Assembly: GCF_030253575.1 (NCBI RefSeq)
Contig: NC_080568.1
Span: 30,779,001 to 30,843,000, forward strand
Length of the DNA stretch: 64,000 nt
DNA from: Rhododendron vialii
Taxonomy: Eukaryota > Streptophyta > Magnoliopsida > Ericales > Ericaceae
Direction: 5' to 3'
Shown here piece by piece: positions 12,001 through 60,032 of this stretch (position 1 is its first letter; every line of letters begins with the position of its first letter). A program made the position numbers and the translations under genes. The notes below the pieces were generated by a model. That model was not told the DNA's origin, did no database searches, and worked only from the letters and a program-made list of their open reading frames with translations.

Positions 12001-14072
12001 GTCGACGACGGTACTTATTTCAAATTTCTTCTTAACTAGTTTTTCTACTGTTGACAGGAGTTGATGCCTGGTGGTGTAAATTCTCCGGTACGTGCTTTCA
12101 AATCAGTCGGTGGACAGCCAATTGTAATGGATTCTGTCAAGGGCTCTCACATGTGGGATATAGATGGCAATGAGTACATTGATTACGTTGGTTCATGGGG
12201 ACCAGCTATAATTGGTCACGCAGATGATGAGGTTCCATTCCTTCTCCTATCCTTAATAGCCAAAATTTGCACAAGTAAAACTTCCATCTAGAGGTTATCT
12301 GGATACTGGACACTGAAAAAATCAGACTCGCCCATTTTGGGTTGCTTCTTTTTGTGCTATACTTTTTGGATCCATTGACTTGTAAGTTGCAACAGTTTCT
12401 AGCGTTTCCTCGTCAGAACTTGGTGCTTTCTCAGATGATAATTTAGACTCGTCCTTTGACAAAGAGCATAACCGGTAGCCAAGGTTGTTAACTTGTGAAA
12501 TGTTTATCGTACTCCTTTAAAAATATGATTTCATATTGGGGGACGATTTCCATCAGTTTATATCAAGTCCTCTCATCAGGAAAAAGGGTGCCAAAGTTGG
12601 CTGCCCTTTGTTACTAAAGATTAACGAATACAAAGGGAAAAGGAATTGTAGGATCTAACTGTAAACTTTTCCCTAGCTACTCGATTTGATAAGATGAATC
12701 CGATGGTGGAATATCGTTAAAAGTCTCGACAGATGATGACGATTGATCAAAATTTTGTTTCGGCATATTGTTCTGTTTAGCTAGAAAAGGAAATATTTCA
12801 GAAACATTTGGGAAATGCTGCGAAAATGTACCCGTTACATAATGAAAATGTCAAAAGAATGCAAATGTACGAAACTGTCATTGTTGAACATTTCTAATAG
12901 GTCAACGGAAGTATCAACCATTTCAATGGAAACAAACTGGAATTTAGTTCCTTGGTGATTATGCGAAAAATCATCGTCTTCTTGCTCTATATTTTACTCT
13001 GCAGGTACTTGCAGCCTTAGCTGAAACAATGAAGAAGGGAACAAGCTTTGGTGCTCCGTGTCTTTTGGAAAATGTTCTTGCAGAAATGGTCATCTCAGCT
13101 GTTCCAAGTATAGAAATGGTCCGTATGGTCAACTCGGGCACGGAAGCATGCATGGGTGTTATTCGCTTGGCCCGCGCCTTCACCAGGCGGGAAAAGATCA
13201 TCAAGTTCGAGGGTTGCTACCACGGCCATGCAGACCCCTTTCTTGTCAAGGCGGGAAGTGGGGTCGCCACCCTAGGGCTCCCTGATTCCCCCGGAGTGCC
13301 CAAAGGAGCCACATATGAAACTCTAACATCCCCCTTTAACGACATCTCCACTGTCAAAAACCTCTTCGACTCGAACAAAGGAGAGATTGCCGCAGTTATA
13401 CTCGAACCCGTGGTTGGGAACTCGGGCTTCATTGCTCCCAAACCTGGTTTCCTTTCTGACCTCCGCGAAGTTACTAAACAAAATGATACTCTTTTGGTGT
13501 TCGACGAGGTTATGACTGGGTTCCGCTTGTCTTACGGTGGGGCCCAGGAGTATTTTGGTATAACGCCTGACTTAACAACACTCGGGAAGATCATCGGTGG
13601 CGGCCTTCCAGTGGGTGCCTACGGAGGGAGGAGAGAGATTATGGAGATGGTGGCTCCGGCAGGTCCAATGTACCAAGCCGGGACCCTCAGTGGAAACCCA
13701 TTGGCTATGACCGCTGGAATCCACACTCTAAAACGATTGAAAGAGCCAGGACGTTACGAGTACCTAACCAAAGTCACAAGCGAGCTTGTTGTGGGCATCG
13801 TTGATGCTGGAAAGAAGGCCGGGCACGCGATTTGTGGTGGGTGTGTAGGCGGGATGTTCGGGTTTTTCTTCACTGAGGGGCCTGTTTACGAATTCGCTGA
13901 TGCAAAGAAGAGTGACACCGCAAAATTCGCTAAGTTTTACCGGGGGATGCTTGAGGAAGGGGTTTACTTTGCGCCTTCACAGTTTGAGGCCGGTTTCACT
14001 AGCTTAGCGCATACCCCAGAGGATATCCAACGGACAATAGAAGCAGCCGAGAAGGTTTTCCGGCAACTTTAA
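9081..14072 (+). CDS. GSA: Glutamate-1-semialdehyde 2,1-aminomutase, plastid
   Basis: PLP enzyme (EC 5.4.3.8) converting glutamate-1-semialdehyde to 5-aminolevulinate in the plastid C5 pathway, the entry to chlorophyll and haem. Exons: 9081-9260, 12058-12231 and 13005-14072 (60, 58 and 355 codons plus stop), all phase 0, giving 473 aa, the usual plant length. The first 35 residues or so are rich in Ser, Pro and Arg with no acidic residues, as in a plastid transit peptide. The mature part has [55 protein letters not shown] and the Schiff-base motif [17 protein letters not shown], with the PLP lysine at about residue 313. The C-terminus has ASLAHT-like SLAHTPEDI. No residue appears lost and no frame break is seen. 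Intron 1 (2.8 kb) carries a hAT-type insertion. It is called functional. Confidence 0.97.
10779..11438. mobile_element. Non-autonomous hAT element in GSA intron 1
   Basis: The ends CAGGGGTGACGC and GGGCGTTGCCCCTG are inverted, and sub-terminal GTTCATGTGAACCCACT pairs with TTGAACCCACTGG-type text at the other end. The flanks GAGGCAGG (10771-10778) and GTGGCAGG (11439-11446) form an 8-bp target duplication with one mismatch, as expected for hAT. It is 660 bp with no transposase frame. Confidence 0.6.
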
Positions 14073-20650: not shown

Positions 20651-21354
20651 TGTTTACACCATATTTTAGCAAGATGGTCATTACTAATCGACTGGACTAA
20701 ATAATGACACGCGGCAACAGTTAATGAATCAGCTTGATTACCGCTCGATAACAACAAAGTGCCAAATGGACTGATGACTAGTCAAGAATGTGCATCATAG
20801 TTGGGGACCCGTGGCAATTAGACAAGGCACAAGTGAAACAAACACATCTACAGACATGATGATGGGTAGTTGAAAAAACAAGCACATCATGAGAGAAATA
20901 ACTGCCATGTAGATCGTGGAGCAAGATGAGGAAGTACAAAGGCAGTAACCGTCCAATTCAAATCGAAGGAGGGAATTCCATCTGGTTTGAATTTCAAGTC
21001 GAAGACAGCCTATAAATACAAGAATATAAGACATTTAGAACCCCCAATCAATCGCCCAAAGGCTTCTATTTTTATCTGTACTTTACATTTTTTGCTCTAG
21101 GAGTAGCTTGTAACGTAACTGTCTGTTCGATTGTGTTCTCATCGTCGATCGACTTCTACCTCGAAGAATAATAAAGTCCATTTTGTTATTCTTCTTTCAT
21201 CTCCATTCACTTCATTAAGTTTGCTTCTAGAAAAGTCCTGAAATACGGCTAGGAACCAAACTCCACCACCACAAACACCCACATTCCAGCACACACACAC
21301 ACACGCAACAACTCTTAATCAATTCGTCGACTGCAAGTAAAAAATAGACAAACA
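20651..21354 (+). repeat. 5' LTR of the large element
   Basis: Begins TGTTTACACC and ends GACAAACA. It contains a likely TATA region (CCTATAAATACAAG near 21010) and an AATAATAAAG polyadenylation-like signal near 21168. Text near its right end includes a CA repeat longer than in the 3' copy. Confidence 0.88.
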
Positions 21355-23787: not shown

Positions 23788-24485
23788 TATTTACACCATA
23801 TTTTAGCAAGATGGTCATTACTAATCGACTGGACTAAATAATGACACGCGGCAACAGTTAATGAATCAGCTTGATTACCGCTCGATAACAACAAAGTGCC
23901 AAATGGACTGATGACTAGTTAAAAATGTGCATCATAGTCGGGGACCTGTGGCAATTAGACAAGGCACAAGTGAAACAAACACATCTACAGACGTGATGAT
24001 GGGTAGTTGAAAAAACAAGCACATCATGAGAGAAATAACTGCCATGTAGATCGTGGAGCAAGATGAGGAAGTACAAAGGCAGTAACCGTCCAATTCAAAT
24101 CGAAGGAGGGAATTTCATCTGGTTTGAATTTCAAGTCGAAGACAGCCTATAAATACAAGAATATAAGACATTTAGAACCCCCAATCAATCGCCCAAAGGC
24201 TTCTATTTTTATCTGTACTTTACATTTCTTGCTCTAGGAGTAGCTTGTAACGTAACTGTCTGTTCGATTGTGTTCTCATCGTCGATCGACTTCTACCTGG
24301 AAGAATAATAAAGTCCATTTTGTTATTCTTCTTTCATATCCATTCACTTCATTAAATTTGCTTTCAGAGAAGTCCTGAAATACGGTTAGGAACCAAACTC
24401 CACCACCACAAACACCCACATTCCAGCACACACACGCAACAACTCTTAGTCGATTCATCGACTGCAAGTAAAAAATAGACAAACA
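23788..24485 (+). repeat. 3' LTR of the large element
   Basis: Copy of 20651-21354 beginning TATTTACACC (terminal TG changed to TA) and ending GACAAACA. By eye about twenty substitutions and a CA-repeat length change separate the pair, implying an insertion that is recent but not brand-new. Confidence 0.88.
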
Positions 24486-31452: not shown

Positions 31453-32645
31453 TATCCACATTTCGGCTCTTGGACATTTGGGTGGGATAATGTAGAGTCC
31501 CCACAAGGAAGCTTTTGATCATTAATCCACTTGATGGCATGTGTGAGAGAGGGTGATGATTTTTTAGCTCGTTGGGTATAGACGAACTATAAGAGGAGTG
31601 ACTTGGGGTTTCTACTTTTATTAACATTCAGCTCATCTGATTAGCTAGCCAACAGGAGAGTCCTAAATTGCTCTCGATAGAATGACAAACACTAAGTGTG
31701 AGAATTATCGACACGATCTGTTAACACGACACAAACCTAACATGAAATTAGAGGGTTTAGGTCGATCACTTTTCGACACAATCACGAATATTATACGACC
31801 AGCTATCACGAATTTTAAATGGGATGAATAAGGGTTAATTAAACTTTTAATTTCGTGTGTCGACCCGTTAACCCCAAAATGACACGACTCGATGATATCA
31901 ACAATGCCAACCAATAGCCCGTACTTGTGTAATTCGTTAATTAGCTAGCTATTAGTTTTTGATTCCTTTGAATTCCTCAATCAGCCGATCGAAGATTTGA
32001 TTTTCCAAAATCATACTGGATCAACTTTGTGGAATTGTGGTTTCATATGCAGTAAGCACTACTGGTTTCACATGCACCAATCAAACCCAAACACAGCATA
32101 ACCTACCACACTAATGACCGTTCCGATCAATTTGAGAAGTACGTACCATGAAAAGCCGCAATATCACAGGAATATTGTATCGATCTCCTCAGAAATAATT
32201 AACCGCTAGAAATCATTTGAGCCCTTAAAGTAGCCAAGGAGAAAGACAAACAAGAATTTATGTGATTTGGTCATAAAGTGTAATTCGATTCGTCAAACAA
32301 AGTAAAAAAAATCTTATCAATGGTGACCTTAAACAATTTATTTAGTGATGTGATTAGTGTGCAAAACATCCAATAGAAAATGCTTAATTAATTAGTTAAG
32401 CCCACTCAATCAGAGTAATGCTAACACTCCGGGTACATGCAGTTCATTTTTTAAAATTATTTCTTCGAAACTTCTATTAAGTTTTTTTATTTTATTTTTT
32501 GGATTGGCGAAAGTAATATTTTGTTAAGGGATTGGAAAAAAGGAAATTCAAATCAAAGATTGGAAATTACATCCATAAGAGGCAAAGCCAAATACACATG
32601 CTGGCCTAAAAGCCTAGATCATACAAATAAAGCCCAAAAAAAAGA

Positions 32646-32777
32646 GAGAAAATGACGGTCTAGGACATATTTTGATAATTAATATCTACCAAGGACATGC
32701 TGTGAACAATTGTTAATGCTGAAAATGTCCTTGGCGGCTATTAATTATCAAAATACGTCATTGGCCGTCATTTTCCC
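32646..32777. mobile_element. Palindromic GAAAATGACGG MITE, copy 1
   Basis: Arms AAATGACGG...TTTTGATAATTAATA and TATTAATTATCAAAA...CCGTCATTTTC nearly meet at the centre (GAACAATTGTTAATGC). It is 132 bp, non-coding. Copies 2 and 3 are at 32793-32924 and 37007-37137. Confidence 0.7.
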
Positions 32778-32792
32778 AAAAAAAAACATAAA

Positions 32793-32924
32793 GGGAAAAT
32801 GACGGCCCATAACGTGTTTTGATAATTAATATCTTCCAAGGACATGCTAAGAACAATTGCTAATGCTGAAAATATCATTGACAGGTATTAATTATCGAAA
32901 CATGTCTTTGGCCATCATTTTTCC
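32793..32924. mobile_element. Palindromic GAAAATGACGG MITE, copy 2
   Basis: Begins GGGAAAATGACGGCC and ends GGCCATCATTTTTCC, same internal order and length as copy 1, just 15 bases downstream in the same orientation. Either a tandem duplication or two insertions into one site preference. Confidence 0.7.
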
Positions 32925-33607
32925 AAACATAAAACCCACCAAAGTTTTGGTGAGCTAGGCCCAGCCTAAGAAACCCAAAACAAACCCTAATCTATTGAAG
33001 ATCGTCCTCCCAGCCGCCCACCAAAGTGGGGTTTCTACAATTTTATTATATATTAACAATTAGCTCATCTGATTAATTAGCTAGCCAACAGGAGAGTCGT
33101 AAATTGCTCTAGATAGCATAACAAGCACTATGGGCGAGAATTCTCCACACCAACCTAACATGAAATTAGAAGATTTAGGTCGATCACTTCTCAACATAAA
33201 CACGAATATGATACGATCCGCATAAAACTAAAATGGAATGAATACAAGTTAAACTTTTAATTTTTCATGTCGACCCGTTAACCCAAAATAGCACGGCATG
33301 ACGATATCAACATGCAATGCCAACCAATAGCCCGTACTTTGTGTTTCATTAGCGATTAGTTTTGATTCTTTTGAATTCCTCAATTAGTCGAAGAAATTTA
33401 ATTTATTCAAAATCATACTTGATCGACTTGTATAAGAAAAAATATCAACGTAATTATTGAAGGACAAACCATGCATGTCATCATCATATATACTCCTACA
33501 ACCCATCACAGAATTAGGTTGCTGTTGGGATTGGAGAATTTGGTTCCCGTTACTACTATAATACAACCCATCACAAAATTGAGAGAAACTTATTTTTGGA
33601 ATAGCTA

Positions 33608-33785
33608 GAGATAGCCTATTTACGGAGCTGTGTAATCTCAGTCGTCCGTTTCGGCAATCAATGGTCTGGATTTTAAAAAAGGCTATTTGCACAAATAGTT
33701 AAACTATTCGTGCGAATAGTTTTTTTAAAATCCGGACCGTCTAAAATACTTTTGAATGACCGAAATTGAGCTCCGTAAACATTTA
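33608..33785. repeat. Foldback MITE, TTACGGAGCT family
   Basis: TTTACGGAGCTGTG...CAATCAATGGTCTGGATTTT pairs with AAAATCCGGACCGTC...GAGCTCCGTAAAC. It is related to 46795-46965, which shares CAATCAATGGT(T/C)TGGATTT, AGTTAAACT and the outer GGAGC(T)C / CGATTGAGCG pairing. Confidence 0.5.
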
Positions 33786-33869
33786 TTTACATATGCTTTG
33801 TTAACAAGATTTTCTCCACAAAATTATGGAAAGACATGCAAGGCATGCATATTTCAGTTTTTGGTGTTT

Positions 33870-34013
33870 TTTTTTTTTGCACGTGTTTTGCTTGTACGTA
33901 TATGGGCACCAACTTAGTAGGGATTTATCTGCCTAGCCTCGTTGTTTCGATCTTCCCGTAGCTCTCGATGTATCCGTTATCGAGTTTCGCAATAAACTTC
34001 TTTTCGCCCATAA
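33870..34013 (+). mobile_element. LINE 3' tail fragment
   Basis: Ends TTCGCAATAAACTTCTTTTC, then an A run, as in other LINE tails of this window. Its left boundary and target duplication are not clear. Confidence 0.4.
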
Positions 34014-34059
34014 AAAAACATTTCAATCTGCATCCAAAATATCCTTCTAAACCTTTTTT

Positions 34060-34288
34060 CTAAACTAGTGTTTGTCGGGTGGTTTGGACTGCTTTGGGGC
34101 TTTAAGTCTGTTTTAGTTCTTGGTTGTTTTTGGTTTTTAGGGTTCTTGGCTGCTTTCGATTTTTGGTGTTCGGTTATCGTCTTGCCTGCTTTTAGGTCTC
34201 GGGTGGCTTTTTCCTGGTATGCCCTTGATCATTTTAATATTTGTAATCCTTTATAAAAATTAATAAATTCTTTTGGTTAGAAAAAAAA
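34060..34288 (+). mobile_element. LINE 3' tail fragment
   Basis: T- and G-rich sequence ending TAAAAATTAATAAATTCTTTTG and a run of As. The 62-codon frame within is a by-product. Target duplication not resolved. Confidence 0.5.
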
Positions 34289-34920
34289 ATTGTTCGTGGA
34301 ATTGTGGTTTCACATGCACTAAGCACTACGGTTCCGATCCAATCAAACCCACACACCTTAACCTACCACACTAACGATCGTTAAAAGCCGCTATATATAT
34401 ATATATATATATATATATCACAGAAATGTACCAATCTCCTCTTAAATTAACCGCTAGAAATCGTTTGAGGCCTTAAAGTAGTCAAAGGAGAAAGAAAAAC
34501 AAGAATTTATGTGATTTGGTCATAAAGTTTAATTCGTTTCGTCAACAAAGAAAAAAATCTTATCAGTAGTGATCTTAACAATTTATTTAGTGAAGAGATT
34601 AGTGTGCAAAACATTCATACAAAATTCTTAATTAATTATTTCTTCCACACTTCTATTAATTTTTTTTATTTTATTGGCGAAAGTAACATTTTATTAAGGA
34701 AATGAGGAAAAGGGAATTCCAACCAAAAATTGAAATTACATCCATAAGGGGCAAAGCCCATTACACCTGATGACCTAAAGCCCATATAATACAAATAAAG
34801 CTCAAAACACCATATGACCTAAAAGTTTAAATATTACAATTAAGCACAAAAAAGAAACATATAACCCAGCAAAGTGCGCTAGGCACAGCCCAAGAAATCC
34901 AAAACAAACCCTAATCTATT

Positions 34921-35164
34921 CAGGTGGTGTTCCACTTTTGTGGAAAAAGAATTTTTTGAAAAAGAAAGCAATTTCAAGCTCAAAAATCATGTATTTACGC
35001 AAATAATTTTTCTACCAATATGAATTTTGTTTGATAGATCTCATTAAGATCTTTTAAACGGTGCAAAAAAAAATTAAAAAAATATTTTTATTTTCATTAT
35101 ATTTGAGTTTGAAATTACATTCGTTTGAAAAAAAAATACTTTTTGAAAAAGTGGAACACCACCT
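34921..35164. mobile_element. MITE with CAGGTGGTGTTCC ends
   Basis: Perfect inverted ends CAGGTGGTGTTCCACTTTT / AAAAGTGGAACACCACCTG. The core (GATAGATCTCATTAAGATC, then TTTTAAACGGTGC) matches that of the element at 428-668. The related copy 1 reads ...CTAATCTATTGAAGATCGTC... without the insert, providing an empty site. Confidence 0.75.
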
Positions 35165-35255
35165 GATGATTGTCCTCCCTGCCGCCCACCACAGCCAACC
35201 ATAGATCAGACAGTCAACCACCAACACTAAACTTCTAATAAGTTTGCGGAATTGT

Positions 35256-35402
35256 TTATGAGGCCCTTGGGTGTTTGGGAAGTGTTTAGGGCGTTTGCCT
35301 TCAGGTGTTTTATCCAACCTTGGTTATATTCCCCTTGCCCTTCCTAAATTGTTGTAACATTTAACAAGTTTTCTTAATAAAATGTTAGTTAAAAAGAAAA
35401 AG
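35256..35402 (+). mobile_element. 147-bp LINE 3' tail with 14-bp target duplication
   Basis: Flanked by GTTTGCGGAATTGT at 35242-35255 and 35403-35416, a perfect 14-bp duplication. The body ends TTCTTAATAAAATGTTAG and an A-rich tail. It is an extremely 5'-truncated LINE copy. Confidence 0.75.
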
Positions 35403-35439
35403 GTTTGCGGAATTGTGCTTGCATAAGCATTAAGCACTA

Positions 35440-35573
35440 AAATCAACTAGGTTTAACTAAGTTGGTCAGGACTCTTGCATCTCATTAGAAGGTCAGGAGT
35501 TCGAGTCTTCCCACCTGCGTGTGGGTGTTCCTCCCTTAGAGGGTTTTTTCTTTCTTTCTTTGTTTCTACCCTG
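35440..35573 (+). mobile_element. tRNA-derived SINE-like repeat
   Basis: TTTAACTAAGTTGGTCAGGA looks like a tRNA A-box region, and GGAGTTCGAGTCTTCCC about 40 bases later is a B-box match. The tail is a T-rich TTTTTTCTTTCTTTCTTTG stretch. Target duplication not resolved. Confidence 0.5.
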
Positions 35574-35576
35574 TAA

Positions 35577-36161
35577 GAGCATCCACAGTAGATTAATCAA
35601 ATTTGGATAATCAAAAGTTGTCACATCATCTTTTGATTATCCATTTAAGGGGTTGCTAAGGTTAGCAATGTAGATGTCCATAGTGACATAATCAACACTG
35701 AATAATCGAAACTTGTCACATCACATTTTTAACCTGTAAAAATCTAAAATTATCATCATATAAAATAATTTTTTTAAAATAGTTTTCAAAATAATAAAAA
35801 TAGGTTATTAGAAATAGAAAATAATTTTTCAAAACCTTTTTATTTTGAAAAAACACTTTTCCAAAAACGTTTAAATTTTTTTTTTAATAAAAAACAATTT
35901 TTGAAAACTAGTTTAACTGTTTTCAAAAAAATAAAAAAACTTATAAAAATGTTTTTCTTAGAAACATTGTTGAGAGAGAGAGAGGGAGAAAATGTTTTGG
36001 TTATTGGCAAAAGATTGTTAGTTTTGATTATCCAAAAGTCAAAATTTGATGAGTTGCTAAGAGGTTGTTAAGATTGATTATGCCACTGTGAGCACTTTTT
36101 TTGAGAGAACATTGCTAAGTTTAGCAACTTTATGGTTTTGGTTATTCCACTGTAGATGCTC
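35577..36161. mobile_element. PIF/Harbinger-like MITE
   Basis: Inverted ends GAGCATCCACAGTAG / CCACTGTAGATGCTC with TAA target duplications (35574-35576, 36162-36164). Internal GGTTGCTAAGGTTAGCAATG occurs in related form in the next element. It is 585 bp, AT-rich and non-coding. Confidence 0.75.
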
Positions 36162-36221
36162 TAATAGACTTATTTTTTGTATTGGTTGAGTTATTGGGCT
36201 TGGTTATCTCATGAACTCTTA

Positions 36222-36989
36222 GGCCATCCACAGTGGTATAATCAAAAAAGAATAACCAAAAGTTGACACATCAGCTTTTGATTATTCACTTAAGAGGTTG
36301 CTAAGCTTAACAATGTTAAGCTTCACTATGGTCACTTCTAGTCCATAATCAAAATATGGGGTCAACTACAATTTCATTCTCTCTCCCCCCTGTTTCCCGT
36401 CATTCACTTCCCTCAATTTATATTTTTTATAAGTTAAAATATATCGATTCCCTCTCTTAATTTTGAAAAAAAAATCGGTGACTTCCTTACCTCCTATTAT
36501 GATTTTTTTTTCCGGGGGTGGGTAGTAGAAACAAGAAAGAAGAGTGAAATACCTTAATCCGGCGACGATGAATTGAATTGTAGATGATTGAGAGATATGA
36601 GTTTCACTTTTGGAGGAAAATAAAGAGAAATAGTTTGTTGGCGAAGTGAAAAAGATATAGAGAGCGAAAAAGCTTGGCTACATAAAATTTTTATTCTTCA
36701 ATTTTATTTTTTTAACCAAAAAAAAAAAAGAGTGGGCGAAGAATAGAAGAAGAAAATACTAGTTGAAACACGTGTGTATACAAATTTTGGAATTAGTTAA
36801 CTTATGTGGTGTAGGATCCACAAATTTTGATTATTGAAAAAGGTTGTTAGTTTTGGTTATCCAAAACCCAAAATTTGATTATTTCTAAGGATGTTGCTAA
36901 GTTTGATTATACCATTGTGAGTAGTCTTTTGCACAAACATTGTTAACTTTAAAAACAATTGGTATTTGATTATACCACTGTGGATGGCC
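36222..36989. mobile_element. PIF/Harbinger-like MITE
   Basis: Inverted ends GGCCATCCACAGTGG / CCACTGTGGATGGCC with TTA duplications (36219-36221, 36990-36992). It shares the ATAATCAAAAGTTG...GTTGCTAAG subterminal text with 35577-36161. It is 768 bp with no transposase frame. Confidence 0.75.
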
Positions 36990-37006
36990 TTACAATTGAA
37001 ATTTAG

Positions 37007-37137
37007 GGGAAAATGACGGCCATAAATGTGTTTTGATAATTAATACCCGCCAAGGATATTTTCAGCATTAACAAATGTTCTTAGCTTGTCATTGGCGGGT
37101 ATTAATTATCAAAACACGTCCTCGACCGTCATTTTCC
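37007..37137. mobile_element. Palindromic GAAAATGACGG MITE, copy 3
   Basis: GGGAAAATGACGGCC ... GACCGTCATTTTCC, 131 bp, with inner arms TTTTGATAATTAATACCCGCC / GGCGGGTATTAATTATCAAAA, the best preserved hairpin of the three copies. Confidence 0.7.
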
Positions 37138-37224
37138 ATTGATTTTAGTGTCCCGGGCTTGTACTATGTACTTCATATCTGATGTAAAATAATCTTTTTT
37201 ACCGATTGAAAATAAATAAATAAA

Positions 37225-37870
37225 AAACATTAAGCACTAGGGTTCCGATCCAATCAAACACAAACACAGTTTAACCTACGACTCCAGTGATCGTTAAGTT
37301 TGTATTGGAATCAGATCGTCATTCTCAATTTTAGAAGTACTATGAAAAGCCGCAATGACACAGTATCGATCTCCTAATAAATTAATCGCTAGAAACCATT
37401 TGAAGTAGTATTAAAGTAGCAAAAGGAGAAAGAAAAGCAAGAATTTATGTGATTTGGTGATAAAATATAATCTGATTCGATCGACAATCAAGAAAATATC
37501 TCATTATTGGCGACTTTAACAATTTGTTTAGTGAAGAGATTAGAGTGCAAAACATAGTACATACAAAATGCTTAGTTAATTAAGCCCACTCAACAGTAAT
37601 GCTAGTCGTGATCAACTCTAAGAGTTCAGTGGAGTGATCTTGGATTGAGACTTAGGAGTTTGTTTCTTTTTAAGATTTTAGATTTGATTCTCCTTGCCCC
37701 CAACGCTTGGAGTCACCTCGCCCCTCACAAGTACGTGTAAAACAACTGTGGGAGAGAAGTTGTAGGGATTAATCCGAGGTGCGCCGGAACACCCAGCATG
37801 TCACGACTCACGAGGATGTCCGTACTAACACTCCAGGAGTCCAGGTACCTGTAGTTCATTTGTCCCACCG
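37225..37870 (+). repeat. Triplicated unit, copy 3 (partial)
   Basis: Carries the middle landmarks of copies 1 and 2: CATTAAGCACTAGGGTTCCG, AAAAGCCGCAATGACACAG, AAGAATTTATGTGATTTGG, AATTAAGCCCACTCAA and, after a SINE-like insert, CTAACACTCCAGGAG...TGTAGTTCATTT (compare 32425-32450). Confidence 0.6.
37618..37825 (+). mobile_element. SINE-like insert in copy 3
   Basis: This segment separates GTAATGCTA from CTAACACTCC, which are adjacent in copy 1, so it is an insertion. It contains GATTCTCCTTGCCCCCAA and GGATTAATCCGAGGTGCGCC, the kind of text seen in plant SINEs of the Au group. Family placement is from memory of sequence style only. Confidence 0.4.
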
Positions 37871-37988
37871 TTTGTAATAAAAAAAATGAGTCATTATCAT
37901 GAATATCTTTAGGAGTGTTTCTTTTCTTTTCTGTTTTTAGGTCAGGCGATAGGGTTTTTAAGGGTTAATTATTTGGAGTTACAACAAG

Positions 37989-38965
37989 AATCGAGCACCT
38001 CTTCCATAAGGAATCGGAGTCCGGCTCCTCTCCAATCCCATAAGAATTGGAGGATCCTTCAAATCTACATTCAAAGGTCAGGATTAATCCATTAACTAAT
38101 CTATTTTTTTTTCTTAATTTTAACTCACGTGATACTCTACGGGCACACAATTATCTCTGTTAACCCTTTCTCTAAAGTATTTGTCTCTTACCCAGGCTCT
38201 TACCCATCATGTGCTCCTTTGTCAACAAAGTATCTCTTTTTAAAAAAAAGGGAGCTCATTTTTTGGTAAAAAGTTGCTACTGATTGAGGGAACATTCTTG
38301 GTGGAGCCAACGAGGGATCGTAGTCTCGATGTTATTTTGCATTTTTCGATCTCTGTTTGGATTTCAGATTTGTGAAGCCTCATTCAATTCTAAACATAAA
38401 AAATAAAAATAAAAATTACAAAGGCTTCATAGAAGATAAAAGTTCATCCATCCAACCTCTAAATGTTTTGTTTGGTTAGGAGTTTAGTTTAATTTAGTTT
38501 TGGTAGTGGGTGGAGAAAGAAATAGAGTAATGATTGAAGATAAGAGTAATGATTGGATAGAGATGAGAAAGTAATAATTGAAAAAATAGGATAATGATTA
38601 GAGAAATAAATAGAGTAATAATTGAAAACAAAATTAAAACTAAAATTCAAATGTTAACGTAATGATTGGAGAAAGAAATAGAGTAATGATTGAAAACAAA
38701 ATTAAAACTAAAACTCAAATGTTAACCAAACAAAGCAAGCACCACCACTTGAGTACTGAAGGGAAAACCTTAGATAATGAAGGGAAGTCATATTAGTTAA
38801 TTGGGTGCTCATTGAGTAGCACTTGAGGTAAAATTAGGAAAGGAAAAGAAATAGATAAGTTAATGGATTAATCCTGACTTTTGGATGTGGAATTGGAGGA
38901 TCCTTCAATTTCTATGGGATTGAAGAGGAGCCGGACTCAAGGAATCGAGCTCAGGAGTCAAGACC
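37989..38965. mobile_element. Long-armed inverted-repeat element hosting another repeat
   Basis: Left arm about 37989-38115 (GAGTCCGGCTCCTC...GGAGGATCCTTCAA...AGTCAGG-like...AATCCATTAACTAATCTATT) matches the reverse complement of about 38845-38965. Arms of over 100 bp around a spacer of about 0.7 kb suggest a Mutator-like or foldback element. A second element (38465-38735) lies in the spacer. Confidence 0.5.
38465..38735. mobile_element. MITE with TTTGTTTGGTTA ends
   Basis: TTTGTTTGGTTA at the left and TAACCAAACAAA at the right are inverted; the inside is repeats of GTAATGATTG(G)A. The tail of the same kind occurs at 8741-8870, so a second copy there probably hosts the MITE at 7795-8740. Confidence 0.45.
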
Positions 38966-38999
38966 TCTTCCTTAGAAGTAAGATTTGTGTTCGACGATT

Positions 39000-39831
39000 T
39001 TCTAGTCCTAAAATAATAGATTGCCCCAAGTGTAGGGCTGAGACCGACATAGCACAATATCTAGTAAATTCGAAGTCAAATCCACAGAGACGGTGATGTG
39101 TGCTAACTAAAAACTAGGGTTGTTACTGATTAAAATAGGCTCTTAGGTAGTCACCCCTTGTCGATTGGTTGAAATTAACTAAAGCTTAGGAAAATATTTA
39201 TTCTTTTCAAATAATTAAAAAAGAGGTACGATCGTAGGATTCATAGCACTCGTAATCAGTTCGGACTTAACCGCTCCATTCGATGTTCTTAAAAACATTC
39301 GACTTTAGAGAGAAAAAGATACCCCGAGAGATGCAAATCTTAATGGTCTCCGTTTACCCATGCGCAGCATGGAATGAGTTTTGGTCCCTCATTCCCCGTT
39401 CATATGGGCTCCGACAATGCCTTAGTTCGTCTAATGGATGTTCTTTATTAACCTAAAATTGCTTTTTCAAATAGGAGCAGTGCCCGGATTGGTCACGGCG
39501 TGCTGTCACCTCGCAATCTTACCTAAACGACTACTCACTAATCATTGAACAAGAAACACAAGAAACCCTAACATGCTTCTATTACGCAAAATGAAAAATA
39601 AACAAGAAATATCAACTAATCAAGTACCAGCGAATAACTTTTATTAAAAACAGAAATTAAAACTAGTTACCGGAGTACGAATAATTGAACAAAGCATCAA
39701 AAACTTAAAAGAAAAAGAGAATACTAAACAATATTGACCTCAGCCCCTGTTCTTCGTTCCCGGCAGCCCAGTTCGGTTCTATTTCGTCCGTGCAAAAAAA
39801 AAATCCATTTATCTGTTGCTGTCTTCTTTTA
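39000..39831. other. Probable degraded retroelement sequence
   Basis: The stretch GCCCCAAGTGTAGGGC...AATCCACAGAGACGG and the text following resemble repeats widely spread in plant genomes and often seen in retroelements. With 40194-40540 it may be one element split by the MITE at 39832-40193. No LTR pair or coding domain was found here, so this is tentative. Confidence 0.3.
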
Positions 39832-47230: not shown

Positions 47231-47383
47231 TAGGCCTGTCAATGGGCCGATCCGGATCCGACAGATATGAATCTGATACGACCCAAATCCAATTCGAATC
47301 CGATGAGACTAGAATCCGACAGTGGTAATCCAAATCCGAAAATCCGAATCCGATCCGAAAACTTTTGTACTTCAAAAATTTTA

Positions 47384-47427
<44 letters not shown>

Positions 47428-47647
47428 TTCCAAAAAAAAGTTCAAAAAAATAAAAATAAAAATACAACTTCTTAAACATTTTTTTTTCAAAATAAAAATT
47501 TTACTTTTAAAAAAAAAGAAGAAGTTTGGATTCGTTTTATAACAGATTTAATCCGATCCGTATTTGGATTACCGGATTTAGATTATCGGATCGACGTTAT
47601 TGGATTTGGATCGAATCTAGATCGGATCCGGTCCATTGATAAGCCTA
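47231..47647. mobile_element. hAT-type MITE, TAGGCCTGTCAAT family
   Basis: Ends TAGGCCTGTCAATGGGCC / GGTCCATTGATAAGCCTA are inverted, with flanks GATTGGAT (47223-47230) and GATTGTAT (47648-47655), an 8-bp duplication with one mismatch. The interior has GATCCGATCC-type words and a TA microsatellite (47384-47423). A second copy lies at 53657-54125. Confidence 0.75.
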
Positions 47648-47941
47648 GATTGTATCATATGTCTGGGACCGGTAGTTTGCCCCACACGACGTTGTACACA
47701 GTACACCTACAAGTCTTGGTCGGTAGACTTGGTACCCTTAGCCATAGTACGACACGACTTGTAACACGCCCATAAGCGTGAGTCAAATTTTTTGATAACT
47801 CAAGTGTCCGAGTCAGGTTACGCGCACTCTTAATCGTGGGCCTAGTTGAGAGAGTATTGTAGAACGACAAGGGATGGCACAATAAAACTCGATTAACGAA
47901 TAGGTTCGGAATATTCCGCGGAATGAATGTTCAAACCAAAA

Positions 47942-50341: not shown

Positions 50342-53300
50342 ATGGCGACGCCGAGAGAGTACATAGAAGAGATCAGGAAGAAGAAGTTCAAGATCGGAGA
50401 AGAACCGGATCCGAAGAACGAAGACTTGCATCATGCCGTCAACTACCTCTCTGCTGAACTCTATACCAAAGATGTCCATTTTCTCATGGAGCTCATCCAA
50501 GTAATACATACATGAATATTTATATCTACAATAACGTGTGGTCGGCATTCTTTGGTTGAACTCATCATCAATCAAATATATATCGTATATCGTTTATTTA
50601 TTTATTTTTTACATATTCTTCACCTCTATCTAACATCTTCTACCAAGGATCGCTTCACCCGTCATGTACATACCAAGCAAGAATATTAATTAGCGAACCG
50701 AATTATACGATATGTACATGTATTTTTTTGTGTTTGTCAGGTAAGATTTATTTAAACATAATGCGTTTAAAGACACCTATCGATTTTATCTCCGATTGTA
50801 TCGAATTGTAAGATCGTATCACGTATTGTAGGACTTTGACAAATTAACTTTTCGTAAGAATTTAAGTACATGTCATGTAATGTAATGTACGTACCTGTTT
50901 CTATTTTTGTGACAGAATGCAGAGGACAATGAGTACCTGGAAGGAGTAAAACCATCACTGGAGTTTGTGATAACGTCGCGGGACATAACGGCCACCAGAG
51001 TTTCCGTGACGTTGCTGCTACTCAACAACGAGAAGGGGATTTCTTTTTCTTTTTTTTTTATCGGCAAAAAATGAAAATTTTATTAAAAATGGGGAGAGGG
51101 AAGAGGGGATCCAACAAAAAGTTGAAATACATCGCTAACGGGTAAAGACCCAAACACCGAAGGGTCTACAAGGGATTACAACATAGAAACAATAAAGCCC
51201 AACCCAACACCCAAGTAAAACAATACAGCCCAAACACCCAAATTCCGGCCCAACCCTGGACCGGCCCACCCAAGCCAACCCCCATAACCCTAACCACAAC
51301 GGCAGCCACCACCGTACAAGACACCGGAGGCCCCAACCTCGCCGTTAAGCTGATCCGGCCGCTCCCAGATGTAGCAATCGGCAGCTGGAATCCGGCCTAC
51401 GAGAGAGACCACTGAGGCAGCCACGGCAAGGGTACCAAGACCAACCACCAAAAAAACCCCAAGCTTCATGATCAAACAAGCAGAACGAGAAGGGGATTTC
51501 TGCGAGGAACATAGAGTCCATTTGCTGTGTTGGGCGCTCCACCAAGAAAGGCAACCGTAAAAGTGGTTATATTGGCGAGAAAGGTTTCCTTCAAACTAAC
51601 TTCTTAAGTTTTCGTTAACCTCTCTTTTTTATTTTTTATTTTTTATACATTGTATCATGAGCGGGGGCTAGTGAGGGTGTTAGGAGTTAGTATTACCACA
51701 AGAGGTTGATCTCCATCCATAGGAATCGAACCCGCGACCTCTCACCTCCAAAGGGAGCTACACAAGTTGGTCAGCTTTTGTTAACCAATCATTCTACCTC
51801 TACACCTACTTACACATCCAATTACACATTCCCACTCACAATAGCGGAGGAGCCCACATATACTACACACCCAATGTGCCTATTGTGAATAGGGATGTGT
51901 AAGTGGGTATGAAATTAAAATTTTTGTTTGTCAACTTTACTCCACTTGAAATCATGTATTAGTATATGCATGGTACGTACGTATTCGAAAATATTACTAC
52001 CCGTAACTAAACATTTTTAAAAATATTCAAAATAAAGTAAAAAATTCAAAAGCAATTGATAATGCCAAAACTAATATTGTTTCTGCCAAAATAACAGTGA
52101 TGATTCCTCGTTGACTTACTTATTTGCCCCTGCTATGACTTTTCAACCTCATCTTTGCAAATGTTCTCTCTCTCTCAGACTCAGACACACCGAAACACAC
52201 CCACTCACACGCGCTCTCTCTCTCTCCCTCTTCTCCAAAACCCACTTTTTGGCATTTCCCCCAAATTTCACCACATTTCCTCCCCCAAAACAGAAGCCAA
52301 AGCAACAAAATGACGGGATTAAATCCTCCGCCCTTAGTGATTTTGGTTTCTGATAATAGCAGAAGAAAAAGATAGCAACAATTTAATTCTTTCTTCTTTA
52401 CGATTCCATTTTGCAGTCAGAGGAGGGAAAAAATAATAGGCCGAGGTAACTAAGCATGATCATCTAACATCAAATGATTTAGATCCCAAAATACAATTGA
52501 ATGTGATTCCATGGTAATTGGTACCCAATTTTCTTCATGGAACTGATATCATATACGTTCATATTTTACCAAGTGGAGTGCCTATGCGAATAAAGAATAT
52601 GAACTAGAGCCTTCATGAGAGAGAGAGAGAGAGAGAGAGATAACGGGTGGTGGTCGATCGGGAGGAGCTTGTCACCATGTGTTGAAGTGGGGGCTAATTT
52701 GAGAGAGGAAACCGGAGAAACTTTTGGGATCCTTTGGGGGAGAGCTCAAAAATGGTTTTTGGAGAGAGAGAGTGTCGGAGGGAGAGAGAAACTGAATATT
52801 TGCAAAGATGAGGTTGAAAAATTAAGGATGTAGCTGGGGCAAATAAGTAGTAATTCAGTGAGAAGCCACCACTAATATTTTGGCAGGAACATTTTTGGTT
52901 TTAGCAGGAACAATATTAGTTTTGACATTATCAACTGCCAAGTTCAAAAGTTGGCTTCTGGAGCTTTTCATCTTGGGTATTTCTAAACATATTTGAGTAA
53001 AAATAAAAAAAAAAAAATTGGTTTTTTCAATTTCTCTAATCGAGATGAATTAACAATATATAAAAATTCGGTGTGAAACTAACAAAATGAGTATTTTTTT
53101 AAATAAAGACAACACCTTTTAGCCCGAAAAATTTAGCAGAACAGGGCCAAAAGACCACTACTGTAAGGCCCTGTTCAGCTAAATAAGCAAAGTTGTTTAT
53201 TTTTTTCGTATTTGTTAGTTTGTCGTCATTTTTTTGAATAAATATTGCATTGTCATGACGAGAGGAATTTAAAAAATAAAAAATTATGATCGAAATCTAA

Positions 53301-56300
53301 TTTTTTGAATAAAGATAAAAAAAAATTAGCTTATTGGCTTATTTTTGTCTTTATTCAAAAATAATTAAGTTTGGATCGTAATTTTTTACTTTTTAAATTC
53401 CTTTTGTCAATGACGATGCAATAATCTTCAAAAATTTGATGAAAAACTAACAAATACGAAAAAAATTAGAATAAGAACAAAAAAATAAACTACTTGACTT
53501 ATTTAGCCAAACGGGGTTAAATACCATAACGAAACAAAAGCTTTCGCGCAGAAAAAATATTCGAACCTGATTTGAACTATCGCCTGTCGCCCGAGATAGA
53601 TAAAACACGATCTTGTGAAACGTTTGCCAACGGCTACCGCTCCCCAAATATGACAGTAGGCCTGTCAATAGGCCAGATCCGACAGATCCGAATCCCATAA
53701 AACCCAAATCCGATCCGGATCTGATAAGACTCGAATCCGATAGTGGTAATCCGAATCCGAAAACTTCGGATCTGATCCGAAAATCCGAAAACTTTTTTTA
53801 CTTCAAAAATTTTGGCAAAAAAAAAAAAAACGGAGTATATATTTTCAAAAAAAAATATTTTCTGAAAAAAATTTAAAAAAATTTAAAATAAAAAGTAAAA
53901 ACAAAAATACAACTTCTTAAACATTTTTTTTTTCAAAATTAAAAATTTACTGTTTTTTTAAAAAAAATTTAAAAAATTTAAAAACATAAAGTTCGGATTC
54001 GGATTGATAACGGATTTAATCCGATCCGATTCAAATCCGATCTGATCCGTATTTGAATTACCGGATTCGGATTATCGGATTGATATTATCGGATCCGGAT
54101 CGGATCCGGTCCATTGACAGACCTATATGACAGCAACAATTTTTCCGACGGTAATATCTTCATGATCAATGTCTTTTATCAAACTTGTTTCAGTTTAAAA
54201 TGATTAGTTCGACTCGTCCTTCTATGGTCTTCAATCTGCAACGGGACTGGTGCATACGTTTTTTCGTCCGCCAACTGTTCGATCATAGTATGCATCAGCT
54301 AAACACCCTTCATTACATATGCTGGAATAAAGAAGTATTGGGTGGCTACTTTGGGTCTAATTATTAGTCAGTGCTCCACATGCATAGCCACCTGGTGCTC
54401 CGGGACACTCTTAACATCACACATTCTCGTGAGGTCTACGGCTAAACGTATGGACCCGACATATGTGTGTGTCTTCGTAAATCGTTCATCTGGATCACTG
54501 ATTCTTGAACTAAAGGTAATGAGAAATGTGTTATGTATTCGTAAATTGTTCATGCTTGTCTGAGTTGTGCAAGTAAAAGAGTTTGAAAACTTTGGAGTTG
54601 TGTTTGTTAAAAAGTTTGAGATATGCTAGAGTTAGAGATCTTTCCTACACATTTTTCCTCCATTGGGTATGCAAAGAAGAAAGCTCTTCTCACTTTCTTT
54701 TAATTTTTCTTTCCTCCTTTTCTAAGCCTCCTTCGATCCTTCCTTAAAATCTAGTCATGTAGTTATGTTCCTTCTCTGTTTTCTTTCTGTTTCATCGCAC
54801 AACCAAACGGGCGAAATAATATCAGTCCTCCCAAAACTTATCTTTGCTTACTTCCACTTCCTTTTCCAAATAGAACGCTTCTCCAATCCGAACATGGTGA
54901 GTTCTCAATTTAATTCAGGATACAGAGCCCCTTTTTTTTAAGTGGTCTCCAGTGTGGAATAAATGAGGACTAAAGGATGAGTATGAATATTTGCGCTCTT
55001 ATTAATCAGTTATTTCTTTCTTACTTTTTCTTCTTAGTGACTGAACATGTTAAAAGTAAGTTTGACACCTACCTCCCCTTTCGACTTGTATACCTTTTTC
55101 ATGTCAAATGTGAGTGTTATATTCCTTTACTTCGTGAGTTCATTAGGACCAGATTTGAGTTCCATTGCCTGACTACTTGTGGAGGATTTCAGTATTGCTT
55201 TCTAAAACAAGTTTTTCTCTGTAATTTCAGGTATTGGATTCAAGAGTGTGTTTCTCATCACATCTCAGCCTTACGTGTTTAGTAATGGCTATCAAATAAG
55301 ATTTAATGAAGAACCTTGTCCACAGTGCAAAGTTGGATACATTGTCCCTGAATGGGTAGATCAAGACCCGATTCTTTCCAACATAAAGCAAGTATATGGT
55401 TCTGGCACTTCTCTTCCCACCACAATAATTGTGTTGCCTCTGAAGCCCGACAAGGTTATACCTGTGAAGCAGCAACTCTCCAGTGTTCATCCTGAACTTC
55501 TTTTATTTCTTTCGAAGATAAAGAGGCTTTCAATCAAGGAAGATAACAAGGATTCTAAGCTTAATTCTGTGACTGCAATATCAATTTCAAGCGAGACTAA
55601 TTTTGCTACAAGGAAGAACATCGATGCTGAGTCCTTTCTGCTCCATCTCTCTGCCAATGAAAAAGGTGACAACTTGGAAAAAGAATGCAGCTACCATATG
55701 TGGAGGCAGAGGTTTCCTGTTAAGCAGGAAAATATAGTGGAAAGAAGAATGGATGTGGAAGAGTTGGTGATCACTTTGGCTTTTCCAAATGGGCAGCGCC
55801 TCAACAGAGGCATGCAAACTCCTGGAATCTACGCGTTCCTCCCTACAGAGATGGTTACAAATTTTCCCTTTATAATTCAGGCAGATTTTCTTCTAGCGTC
55901 GTCAAGGGAAACCATCCTCTTGGATAACAAATGGAACCAAGGGATTCTTGACAATGTGCCCTCTGCTTTTATTTCTGCATTAATTTCGCTGGTGAAATCA
56001 GTAGAAGATGCTCCAGCATCTAGCCTACCTCGTATGTTTGAGTTCTTACCTATCAACAGCTCTCCTTATCCCCAGTTGAATGTTGTTCGGGAAAAAATCA
56101 AAGCAAAATTGTTGGATGAAACTATAATACCTTGTGAGTCATACACGGAGCATAAGCTTTTTCGTAAACCCGGTGAAGTATGGAGGCTAATGCCTGCTTT
56201 TTGGAGCATATTAGATAAGGCGAGGAAGGAGGAAGGGCTGAGCTTGCACAATGTTTCTTCCAATGGGCGATATGTGCTTAGTTCTTCATTCGATAGAAAG

Positions 56301-59300
56301 GACTATGACCACATATTAAATTTCTTGGGATTGAAACTTGTAGAGGACGAATGGTATGCAAACTGCCTCCGGTTAACTAATCTCATGTTGGGAGTGTCAG
56401 AGGAGGTGTATTTGGATATTCTGTTGTTTCTAGCTGAGAAATGGAGTTCTAATTTTCAGAGAACTAACATCAGAAACATACCACTTCTGAAGTATGTGAA
56501 TCTCAATGGGGATGTGTCTTTTTACACTGTAAATAATGTTTCCCAGAAGATTGTGGTTCTTCTATCCCGTGAACCTCATCAGATATCATGGCTGATTGAT
56601 TGGAACCAGGAATTTAGAATTGGCCGGCTTTTCTTACCTAAATCTACACAAGAAGCCATCCATCGATGTTCGAAGAGGCAGACACTATTGGAATGGCTCT
56701 CAAAAGAGCTGAAGGTTGATGCTGTTAATGTCTACCAATATACAGCTTTACTTGCTAAATCACTATTTATTGATCGGAAGCTTGTTATTACTTATGTTCA
56801 CTTCTTATATCACTCACTTACAAAGAACCATTTGTCTTGGATGGAGGTTAATCATTTATGTCGTAGTATGCCACTAGTGGACAACTATGGGCGGTTGATG
56901 GCACAAGGTAAAGGGGTTCTTGTTCCTGCTATTGGAAGCAAATGGTTCAGTCTGATTGGTTCGAATCCTTGGAGATACCAAGGTTTTGTTGAGCTAGGAG
57001 AAGACTATTTGCATTCGGGCACATTTGCTGGTGTATGTACTCCTGAGAAGCAGCTTATTTCTTTCCTTAAAAGTAATCTTGGAGCCTCTGACGTCCCTGA
57101 TTTATCTCCTCCAGATGTTGCTATTCCTACAATGTGTTCCCCGCTTACCAAGCAAAACACGTTCTTGCTTTTGGATTGGATTCGTAACAGGAAACGAAAG
57201 GGCGTTGAACTGCCCAGAAATTTCTTGTCATGCATTAAGAACGGAAGCTGGATGAAGATTTCTCTGAGCGGCAGTCCTGGCTATAGGCCTCCATCTCAGT
57301 CATTCCTACCAACCTCATCATGGGGCCAACTTCTGCAAAACGAATGTGTGCTTGTTGATATCCCAATAATCGATCGGAGTTTTTATGGGGATGAAATAGA
57401 TGGATACAAAGAAGAGTTGCGAGCAATAGGAGTGATGTTTGAATATGGAGAGGCTTGTCAATTTGTTGGGAAGCATCTCATGTCTCTGATGGCTTCCTCT
57501 ACTCTGACGAGAGGGAATGTGGTTTCGATACTGAAGTTTATTAAGTTTTTGAAGGATAAATTTCTTTCTGCTGAAGAATTTATCCGTAGTATCAGATTAG
57601 GAAAATGGTTGAAAACTTCACTTGGCTACAGGTCCCCTGTTGGATCTGTTTTGTATGATGATGAATGGAGAGTTGCATCACAGATCAGCGACATCCCATT
57701 TATTGATCGAGACTACTACGGTGAGGAAATCGTTGGTTTCAAAACTGAACTCCAGCTGCTGGGTGTTGTTATTAGCTTCGGTCAAAATTACCAGGTTGTG
57801 TCTGATCATCTAAAATCTCCAGCTCACATCAATGCTCAAACTGCTGAATCCGGACTTTTTGTACTGGAATGTTTACAGCTTCTGAAATCATCTGACAAGT
57901 TTGTTCAAGCGTTTAGAAACAACAAATTTTTGAAGACAAACATGGGTTACACGTATCCAGTTGGGTCATATCTGTTGAATCCTGCATGGGGTTTCCTTCT
58001 TCGTGTTTTCAATTGCTTCCCATCTATTGACGAAAACTTCTATGGGAACAGCATCGTCTTGTACAAGAATGGGTTGAAGCAATTGGGGGTCGTAGTGGAT
58101 TTTGAGGAGGCAACCATAGCATTTGTTCGCGTATTCAGGCAGCAATCGGCACTACCTTCCATTAATAAAGACAATGTTCTATCACTCCTGGCATGTTACA
58201 GAAAGCTACAGGGTACAACTTTTGAGTTCCCTGATGAGCTGAAGAGATGTATCTGTAAGGTTAAATGGGTACGAACTCGCCTAGGTGATTGCAGAGCTCC
58301 AAGGGATTGCATTCTGTTTGGCCCTGATTGGGAATCTCTCTCTGGTATCTCTTTGCTTCCCTTTATTGATGATACTGACAGTTACTATGGCAAGGGCATC
58401 GGCCGTGAATTTATAGAGGAGCTAAAGAGTATAGGAGTTGTTGTTGCTTTGAAGGATGGTTTCAGGTTTGTGGCTGCTGGCCTTTCTTTACCCCTTGATC
58501 CTAGTAGAATTACTCCTGCAAATGTGTATTCTTTACTAGAATGTGTCCGCAACTTTCAGCAACAGAAGCATGAGACTTTGCCTGATTCATTTTTGAAGAA
58601 AATTGGTAATGGATGGTTGAAAACCCACTCTGGCTATAGGACTCCTGAGAAGTGTCTGCTGTTCGATTCTGATTGTGGTTCATTCTTACAGCCAGATGAT
58701 GGACCATTCATTGATGAAGAATTCTATGGCTCCAAAATTACATTCTATGCTAAAGAGCTCAGTTCAATAGGCGTCACTGTTGAAGCTAGAAATGGATGTC
58801 ACCTGCTTGCTGATCACATAAAATTTCATTCCAAGTTCACTACTATCGTTCGAACCTATAGTTACTTGATGAACTTCAACTGGGTGCCTAACAGCGGAGA
58901 TACAAGAATGATTTGGATTCCAAATGGAAGTGATGATGGAGTGTGGGTAAAACCGGGAGAATGTGTTCTCTCAGATGAGGATAATCTCTTTTGTATGCAG
59001 TTGAAGGTGTTGGAGAAACACTATGAGAAAAATTTACTTAAGTTTTTCTCAAATGTTTTGGGAGTTAAAGCCCATCCTTCACTTGACGACTATTGTTTTC
59101 TTTGGAAGCAATGGGAGTGTTCTGGGAAGCCACTTTCGCCTGCGACTTGTCATGCCTTTTGGAAATTTGTAACAGATAACTGGAGTTCGAGGACAGAGAA
59201 GACTCTTGTTGATAATTTATTGAAACTGCCTGTATATTCTTCTTCAGGTGAAATTTTGTTGTATAAAAGGCAAGATGTTTTCATTGCTGATGACCTTCAG

Positions 59301-60032
59301 CTGAAGGATCTTTTCGAACAGTGGCCAATATTTGTCTGGTTTCCTCAGGCGAGCTCACCATCCCTCCCTCGGTTCAAGCTTCTTGAGGTTTACAGCAAAA
59401 TTGGCATCCGAAACATTTCTGAATGCGTGAGGAAAGAAGAAACATCTGCAATGGATGGTGGTGGGCCAAATCAAGGAAGTCCTAGGGACAATTTGATTGG
59501 GAAAGGGCTGATTAGGCTCATTCTCGGGTTTCTAGCTGGTCCAACTCTCCGAATGGAAGCAGAGAATAGGCATGAAGCTGTCAGATGCCTAATTAATCTA
59601 ACTGTGCTTGAGACACCACAGCCAATTATGATTGGCTATAGTTTAACTCTCTCTTCTGGAGAAAACTTGAAAGCAGAAGCAAAACCGATGATCCGTTGGG
59701 AAAAGGATAGTAAAAGGTTATTTGTGAAGAATTTGGACAGGTCAGGTGGACATAGAAGTAACATTGAATATGCTACATATTTTTCTGAAGCAATAGCCAG
59801 GGGATTGCTGTGGGAGAAGGAAGATTCTATTGACCAACTGGCTGAACTGATCAAATTGGGATTCCTTGTGGAATTTGATGAGTGTGCAATTGGGTTCTTG
59901 ATGAAGACCAAGAATCTGCAGCTGTTTTTGGAGGATGACAGGTTCCTCTCTTCGGCCTTTCCTTTTAGATTCTGGGGATTACCCGCCTCAATCGTCGATT
60001 TCTGCATGCATTTCTACAGTAGGTTTTTTTGA
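50342..60032 (+). CDS. NO VEIN-like protein, exon 2 interrupted by a LINE tail
   Basis: Relative of Arabidopsis NO VEIN, a plant nuclear protein needed for vascular and auxin-dependent patterning, with an N-terminal GHKL/Bergerat-type ATPase-like region. Exons: 50342-50500; 50916-51044 plus 51502-51583 (one exon of 211 bp split by an insertion); 55231-60032. Ignoring the insert, the frame is continuous for 1723 aa, shorter than NO VEIN itself (about 2700 aa) and nearer its shorter paralogues. Start ATPREYIEEIRKKKFKIG is family-like. Motifs: N-box ELIQNAEDNEY (50-60), NNEKGIS (90-96), GEKGIGFKS (121-129), then a long region with repeated FIDRDYYGEEI-type units (RSFYGDEI, ENFYGNSI, EEFYGSKI). 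As read, the insert brings a TGA at 51072-51074, giving about 105 aa. It may be a pseudogene allele, or splicing may bypass the insert. The intact 1600-codon last exon argues that the lesion is recent or tolerated. Confidence 0.88.
51045..51483 (-). mobile_element. LINE 3' tail inserted in a coding exon
   Basis: A perfect 18-bp duplication AACGAGAAGGGGATTTCT flanks it (51027-51044, 51484-51501). The poly-A end is at the left, seen as TTTTCTTTTTTTTTT, so the element is antisense to the gene; in its own sense it ends TTTTTAATAAAATTTTCATT, then TTTGCCGAT and As. It is 439 bp, all 3' untranslated type. The 61-codon minus frame at 51290-51475 has no family features. Confidence 0.88.
51621..51779 (-). 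mobile_element. SINE in NO VEIN-like intron 2
   Basis: On the minus strand it contains AGCTCCCTTTGGAGG then GAGGTCGCGGGTTCGATTCC, a good B box, and ends in ATACAATGTATAAAAAATAA and an A-rich tail. GTTAACC lies at both sides (51614-51620, 51780-51786), a plausible target duplication. Confidence 0.6.
52053..52942. mobile_element. 890-bp element with long inverted ends
   Basis: The first 120 bases (CAATTGATAATGCCAAAACT...TTATTTGCCCC...TTTTCAACCTCATCTTTGCA) match the reverse complement of the last 150 or so. TTCAAAAG lies at both sides (52045-52052, 52943-52950), extended to nine with one mismatch. Long arms with such a duplication suggest Mutator-like. CT and GA runs lie in the arms (52170-52220, 52619-52641). 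No transposase frame. Confidence 0.65.
53168..53517. mobile_element. MITE with CCCTGTTCAGCTAAATAAG ends
   Basis: Left CCTGTTCAGCTAAATAAGC pairs with right CTTATTTAGCCAAACGGGG; the inner arms also pair (TTATGATCGAAAT / TTGGATCGTAATTTTT). About 350 bp in intron 2 of the NO VEIN-like gene. Flanking TAA at both sides may be the target duplication. Confidence 0.55.
53657..54125. mobile_element. hAT-type MITE, TAGGCCTGTCAAT family, copy 2
   Basis: Ends TAGGCCTGTCAATAGGCC / GGTCCATTGACAGACCTA, perfect 8-bp duplication TATGACAG (53649-53656, 54126-54133). Interior GATCCGAATCCGA-type words as in 47231-47647. It is 469 bp in intron 2 of the NO VEIN-like gene. Confidence 0.85.

Follow-up and report, generated by a model that had tools for sequence, protein, structure and literature searches.

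A probable LINE tail splits the N-terminal domain of a plant sacsin/GHKL-type gene in Rhododendron vialii

Introduction

The sacsin and GHKL-type families have several members in plants, and NO VEIN of Arabidopsis carries a GHKL-type domain. NO VEIN would also be expected to match the NOV C-terminal domain, which is a Pfam family in its own right. Among the elements that can disrupt such genes, L1-type LINEs leave target-site duplications of ~7-20 bp, and both target duplication and 5′ truncation are typical of the L1-clade LINEs of flowering plants. LINEs of flowering plants are reported to belong almost exclusively to the L1 clade, nearly all with poly(A) ends (PMC3747384). A plant gene broken by such an element is BrCER2 of Chinese cabbage, where BrLINE1-RUP is a partial 130-bp LINE-1 copy in a coding exon that brings in a premature stop (PMC10368883).

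Here we describe a comparable arrangement in a 64-kb stretch of Rhododendron vialii DNA (the window), in which a 439-bp insert lies within a coding exon. It is very likely that this insert represents the antisense, 5′-truncated tail of a plant L1-type LINE, which would have entered by target-primed insertion and thereby created a young loss-of-function allele of a sacsin/GHKL-type ATPase gene.

Results

The affected gene comprises three exons (50342-50500, 50916-51583 and 55231-60032), all bordered by GT/AG. Its parts and those of the insertion are listed below.

50342..50500, plus strand: exon 1, 53 codons, ending ...HFLMELIQ and followed by a GT donor
50916..51026, plus strand: 5′ part of exon 2, with the rest of the N-box (NAEDNEY)
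51027..51044, plus strand: target-site duplication, left copy (NEKGIS codons), 18/18 identical to the right copy
51045..51483, minus strand: 439-bp putative retroposon insert, a 5′-truncated LINE-like tail antisense to the gene, with AATAAA and an A tract on the minus strand
51072..51074, plus strand: premature in-frame TGA within the insert
51484..51501, plus strand: target-site duplication, right copy, 18/18 identical to the left copy
51502..51583, plus strand: 3′ part of exon 2 (ARNIESICCVGRSTKKGNRKSGYIGEK), followed by a GT donor
55231..60032, plus strand: exon 3, starting GIGFKSVFLIT and open until the stop at 60030-60032

Exon 2 measures 668 nt with the insert and 211 nt without it. As sequenced, the frame runs into the TGA at 51072-51074, which stops translation after 105 residues and lies 509 nt upstream of the end of exon 2. 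Removal of the insert and one duplicate restores an empty site, and the three exons then encode 1723 aa without an internal stop, the last exon alone accounting for 1600 codons. The break falls after NNEKGIS, between ELIQNAEDNEY and GEKGIGFKS. The preliminary description of this locus had claimed the frame reopened by that removal, the open remaining exons with 1600 codons in the last, the position of the break, the TGA met on reading through at 51072 and a perfect 18-bp target duplication around a 439-bp insert, and each of these was reproduced.

The two copies of the duplication, 51027-51044 and 51484-51501, are a direct repeat on the plus strand with 18/18 identity. The identity stops at each end, the adjacent outside bases being C and G on the left and T and G on the right, which fixes the length of the duplication at exactly 18 bp, within the ~7-20 bp range of LINEs. 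None of 20 simulated 64-kb windows and none of 3000 simulated 900-bp stretches, all generated by a first-order Markov model trained on the window, contained an 18-bp direct repeat at 100-1500 bp spacing, although real DNA is less random than such a model. The window itself contains 30 maximal exact runs of at least 18 bp at this spacing, dinucleotide runs excluded; 27 of them sit within longer duplications, and the 51027/51484 pair is one of only three that are isolated. The other two lie within an inverted-repeat arm (38044) and within a tandem array (38511).

Several other features were recorded in the window. Intron 2 holds a MITE-like foldback element at 52055-52914, with 74% similarity between its inverted arms, 52055-52188 and 52772-52914. 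Repeat copies at 53657-54128 and 47231-47650 are 70% alike over 488 columns, the former being rich in GGATCCGGATC-like words. A 700-bp direct duplication pairs 20653-21354 with 23790-24485 at 96.7% identity, and an aminotransferase class-III exon at 12948-14072 (Pfam 1.8e-55) is presumably that of a glutamate-1-semialdehyde aminomutase.

Profile searches of the joined N-terminus (225 residues) identified the domain that the insert divides. The empty-site join matched NF047352, the sacsin N-terminal ATP-binding-like model, with 63.8 bits (1.5e-17, residues 46-139; curated cut-off 50 bits) and Pfam SACS with 46.7 bits (4.8e-12, residues 41-143; cut-off 32.8). Scores above the curated cut-off were obtained with the join only, since the separate parts reached 18.4 bits before the break and 38.4 bits after it against NF047352. 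HATPase_c_3 (17.2 bits, cut-off 25) and two HSP90-family models stayed below cut-off in the joined N-terminus. Residue 96 is the last before the insertion, which places the break within the NF047352 and the SACS match alike, and solved sacsin N-terminal domains align over the break with no insertion there, albeit weakly (E 0.014 to 0.018). Because the profiles and the solved domains span the join, it very probably represents the ancestral exon, with the break inside the domain.

These matches bear out the GHKL assignment made in the preliminary description; the accompanying name of the gene fared less well. "NO VEIN-like" had been an assumed label, and the NOV C-terminal domain was not reported by Pfam in exon 3 at E values up to 0.01, so that the broken gene is best read as plant sacsin/GHKL-type rather than as NO VEIN-like. 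A literature search found no paper on NO VEIN together with GHKL. For exon 3 taken whole, neither Pfam (E 0.01) nor NCBIfam (E 1) yielded a family, and when only its first 399 residues were searched, SACS appeared at E 0.033, below cut-off. A search of the exon 3 protein against viral contigs returned no match. A pattern search of the same protein (55230-60029) revealed at least four diverged repeats around a FYG...ELxxIGV motif, in a region where Pfam places no family.

The long open frame of exon 3 provides an indirect view of the age of the insertion. A stop would arise from 687 of the 14400 single-base changes possible in the 1600 codons that end at 60029. If the exon were unconstrained, divergence of 0.5%, 1% and 2% would leave it free of stops with a chance of 0.32, 0.10 and 0.01, respectively; with indels counted at an assumed 0.1 per substitution, the frame would stay intact with a chance of 0.047 at 0.5% and 0.002 at 1%. 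These low chances leave three readings: a young insertion, a locus still in use, or a segregating allele. Youth of the insertion is thus an indirect inference, and continued use of the locus would also fit the intactness of exon 3.

A gene that was already dispensable, through a redundant paralogue or as an old pseudogene, would have suffered little from the insertion. The presence of several family members in plants is in keeping with such redundancy. A search of the 64-kb window for loci matching the broken gene returned its own locus only. Against prior dispensability stand the 1600 open codons of exon 3, with the no-stop chances given above for 1% and 2% divergence and lower ones once frameshifts are admitted, so that any decay would have to be recent. 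We regard prior dispensability as possible but rather unlikely.

The anatomy of the insert resembles that of a LINE 3′ end. On the minus strand, AATAAA is followed ~25 nt later by a terminal A tract, interrupted by one G, that stands beside the duplication. GC content is 49.7% in the insert versus 35.5% in intron 2, and the putative nick site shows a pyrimidine/purine junction, TTTCT/G. Two places in the window are related to the tail.

34660..34914, minus strand: diverged relative of the insert tail; local alignment score 141, or 123 without the poly-T; 69.8% over 116 columns
32503..32637, minus strand: weaker relative of the insert tail; score 84 without the poly-T

The score of 141 compares with a best of 101 among 191 random window stretches, which remained of 200 drawn after nine near the insert or near 34660-34914 had been dropped. 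When the poly-T-free tail was aligned with 416 tiled stretches, the two relatives scored 123 and 84, the best unrelated stretch 66 and the median stretch 31. Both relatives are diverged, and the region of 32503-32637 is duplicated with 34634-34807 at 81% identity; because they lie in one local duplication, they possibly stem from one event. For the older tail at 34660, a search for a target duplication gave nothing above an 11-mer. Overall, the clear match at 34660-34914 and the weaker one at 32503-32637 suggest that the insert tail belongs to a repeat family with a common 3′ end.

Searches for coding capacity were less favourable to a LINE. Ten stop-free stretches were compared with Pfam, two overlapping the insert (101 aa on the minus strand, 89 aa on the plus strand) and eight on the minus strand in 32401-39000, and none matched a reverse transcriptase. 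The sole matches among the ten were both below cut-off: DUF2891 at E 0.012, the only one from the insert-overlapping stretches, and an endonuclease/exonuclease family at E 0.14. The earlier claim of a LINE tail therefore stands as far as the anatomy and the diverged relatives in the window go, with no backing from these ten stretches; because no reverse transcriptase was found, we can only infer that the insert is of LINE origin.

Much the same anatomy might result if LINE enzymes had moved a different poly(A) retroposon, such as a SINE or a processed pseudogene fragment derived from a cellular mRNA's 3′ end. Any polyadenylated RNA shares AATAAA and poly-A, neither of the two longest frames listed for the insert matches a reverse transcriptase, and the L1 machinery of flowering plants is presumed to move mRNAs as well (PMC3747384). 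The relationship of the tail to other places in the window argues against such an origin, since it probably marks a repeat family. A tRNA-derived SINE was rejected, as simple patterns disclosed no A-box or B-box in the insert and ARAGORN no tRNA in the window. Rfam returned nothing at gathering score for the window, and a comparison of the insert with plasmids gave no match. Taken together, this origin is unlikely, and a LINE tail is the identification we prefer.

Splicing could in principle bypass the insert. We combined 23 donors with 45 acceptors into single introns no shorter than 70 nt and scored them with hand-written matrices. Frame was kept by 43 donor-acceptor pairs, and 0 of the 43 restored the 1723-residue protein. 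The insert was accordingly rejected as a normal intron, on the grounds that none of these listed in-frame single GT-AG introns yields the full protein and that its borders, TTTTC...GCAG, lie within an exact duplication. Skipping of exon 2 was likewise rejected as a rescue, because the frame then closes at residue 76. Within exon 3, an in-frame Met first occurs at 55698, and the protein read from that codon gave no NCBIfam match at E 1.

The best combined score among the 43 in-frame pairs belongs to the exon 1 donor joined to the CAG at the right end of the insert, whose AG is the insert's last (51483). The in-frame product of 1686 aa would lack 37 residues holding most of the N-box but keep a match of the domain's second half to NF047352 (39.2 bits). 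This score does not reach the curated cut-off of 50, and the 51483 acceptor scores 0.3 versus 4.6 and 4.7 for the native acceptors of the gene, again by the hand-written matrices. Rescue by this route has a slim chance at best. Slighter still is the prospect that the LINE junction supplies an acceptor at the duplication from which an in-frame, N-box-less and ATP-binding-dead sacsin-like chaperone would be made and kept under selection. It is hardly probable that the insert reflects a faulty assembly or a haplotype-specific allele merged into the reference, as the exact duplication and the retroposon anatomy are the expected trace of a real insertion.

Discussion

The common 3′ end, the duplication and the putative nick at GATTTCT/GCG together speak for a LINE tail that entered by target-primed reverse transcription. 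The plus strand would have been nicked at this site in coding exon 2, and a poly(A) RNA copied from the nick by target-primed reverse transcription. The copy, antisense to the gene, would have been cut short at its 5′ end, and the 18-bp duplication left behind. The insert separates the N-box of the nucleotide-binding domain from its GEKGIGF motif and shifts the frame, and translation stops after 105 residues, with the next exon junction 509 nt downstream. The transcript would probably be lost to nonsense-mediated decay or yield a useless fragment. The simplest interpretation of the locus is that its message decays and its function is lost, and the insertion most likely knocks out the affected gene copy.

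The allele would thus constitute a clean natural knockout of one plant sacsin/GHKL allele. If it is fixed and has no paralogue, the gene would be dispensable in Rhododendron vialii; if it segregates, it would offer a ready marker and a null allele. The insertion mechanism is already known, and the mutation is of an ordinary kind that is well preserved here.

Residues 41-145 of the empty-site protein match the HSP90-like domain of the sacsin N-terminus over the break (NF047352, Pfam SACS, PDB 5v44-5v47). Unlike sacsin, the plant protein has 1723 aa, and its whole last exon is without a Pfam (E 0.01) or NCBIfam (E 1) match. NO VEIN of Arabidopsis would have a GHKL-type domain in common with it; the NOV C-terminal domain was not reported in exon 3 by Pfam at E values up to 0.01. 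The insert shares a poly(A) 3′ end with the L1-clade LINEs of flowering plants (PMC3747384); it differs from them as a copy without the reverse-transcriptase part, likened by anatomy. As with BrLINE1-RUP in BrCER2, a LINE-like piece within a plant coding exon leads to a premature stop. For BrLINE1-RUP a source element and a mapped phenotype are reported, and its insertion was accompanied by a deletion of 40 bp without any target duplication (PMC10368883), whereas the Rhododendron insert, known from its sequence, is flanked by an intact duplication of 18 bp.
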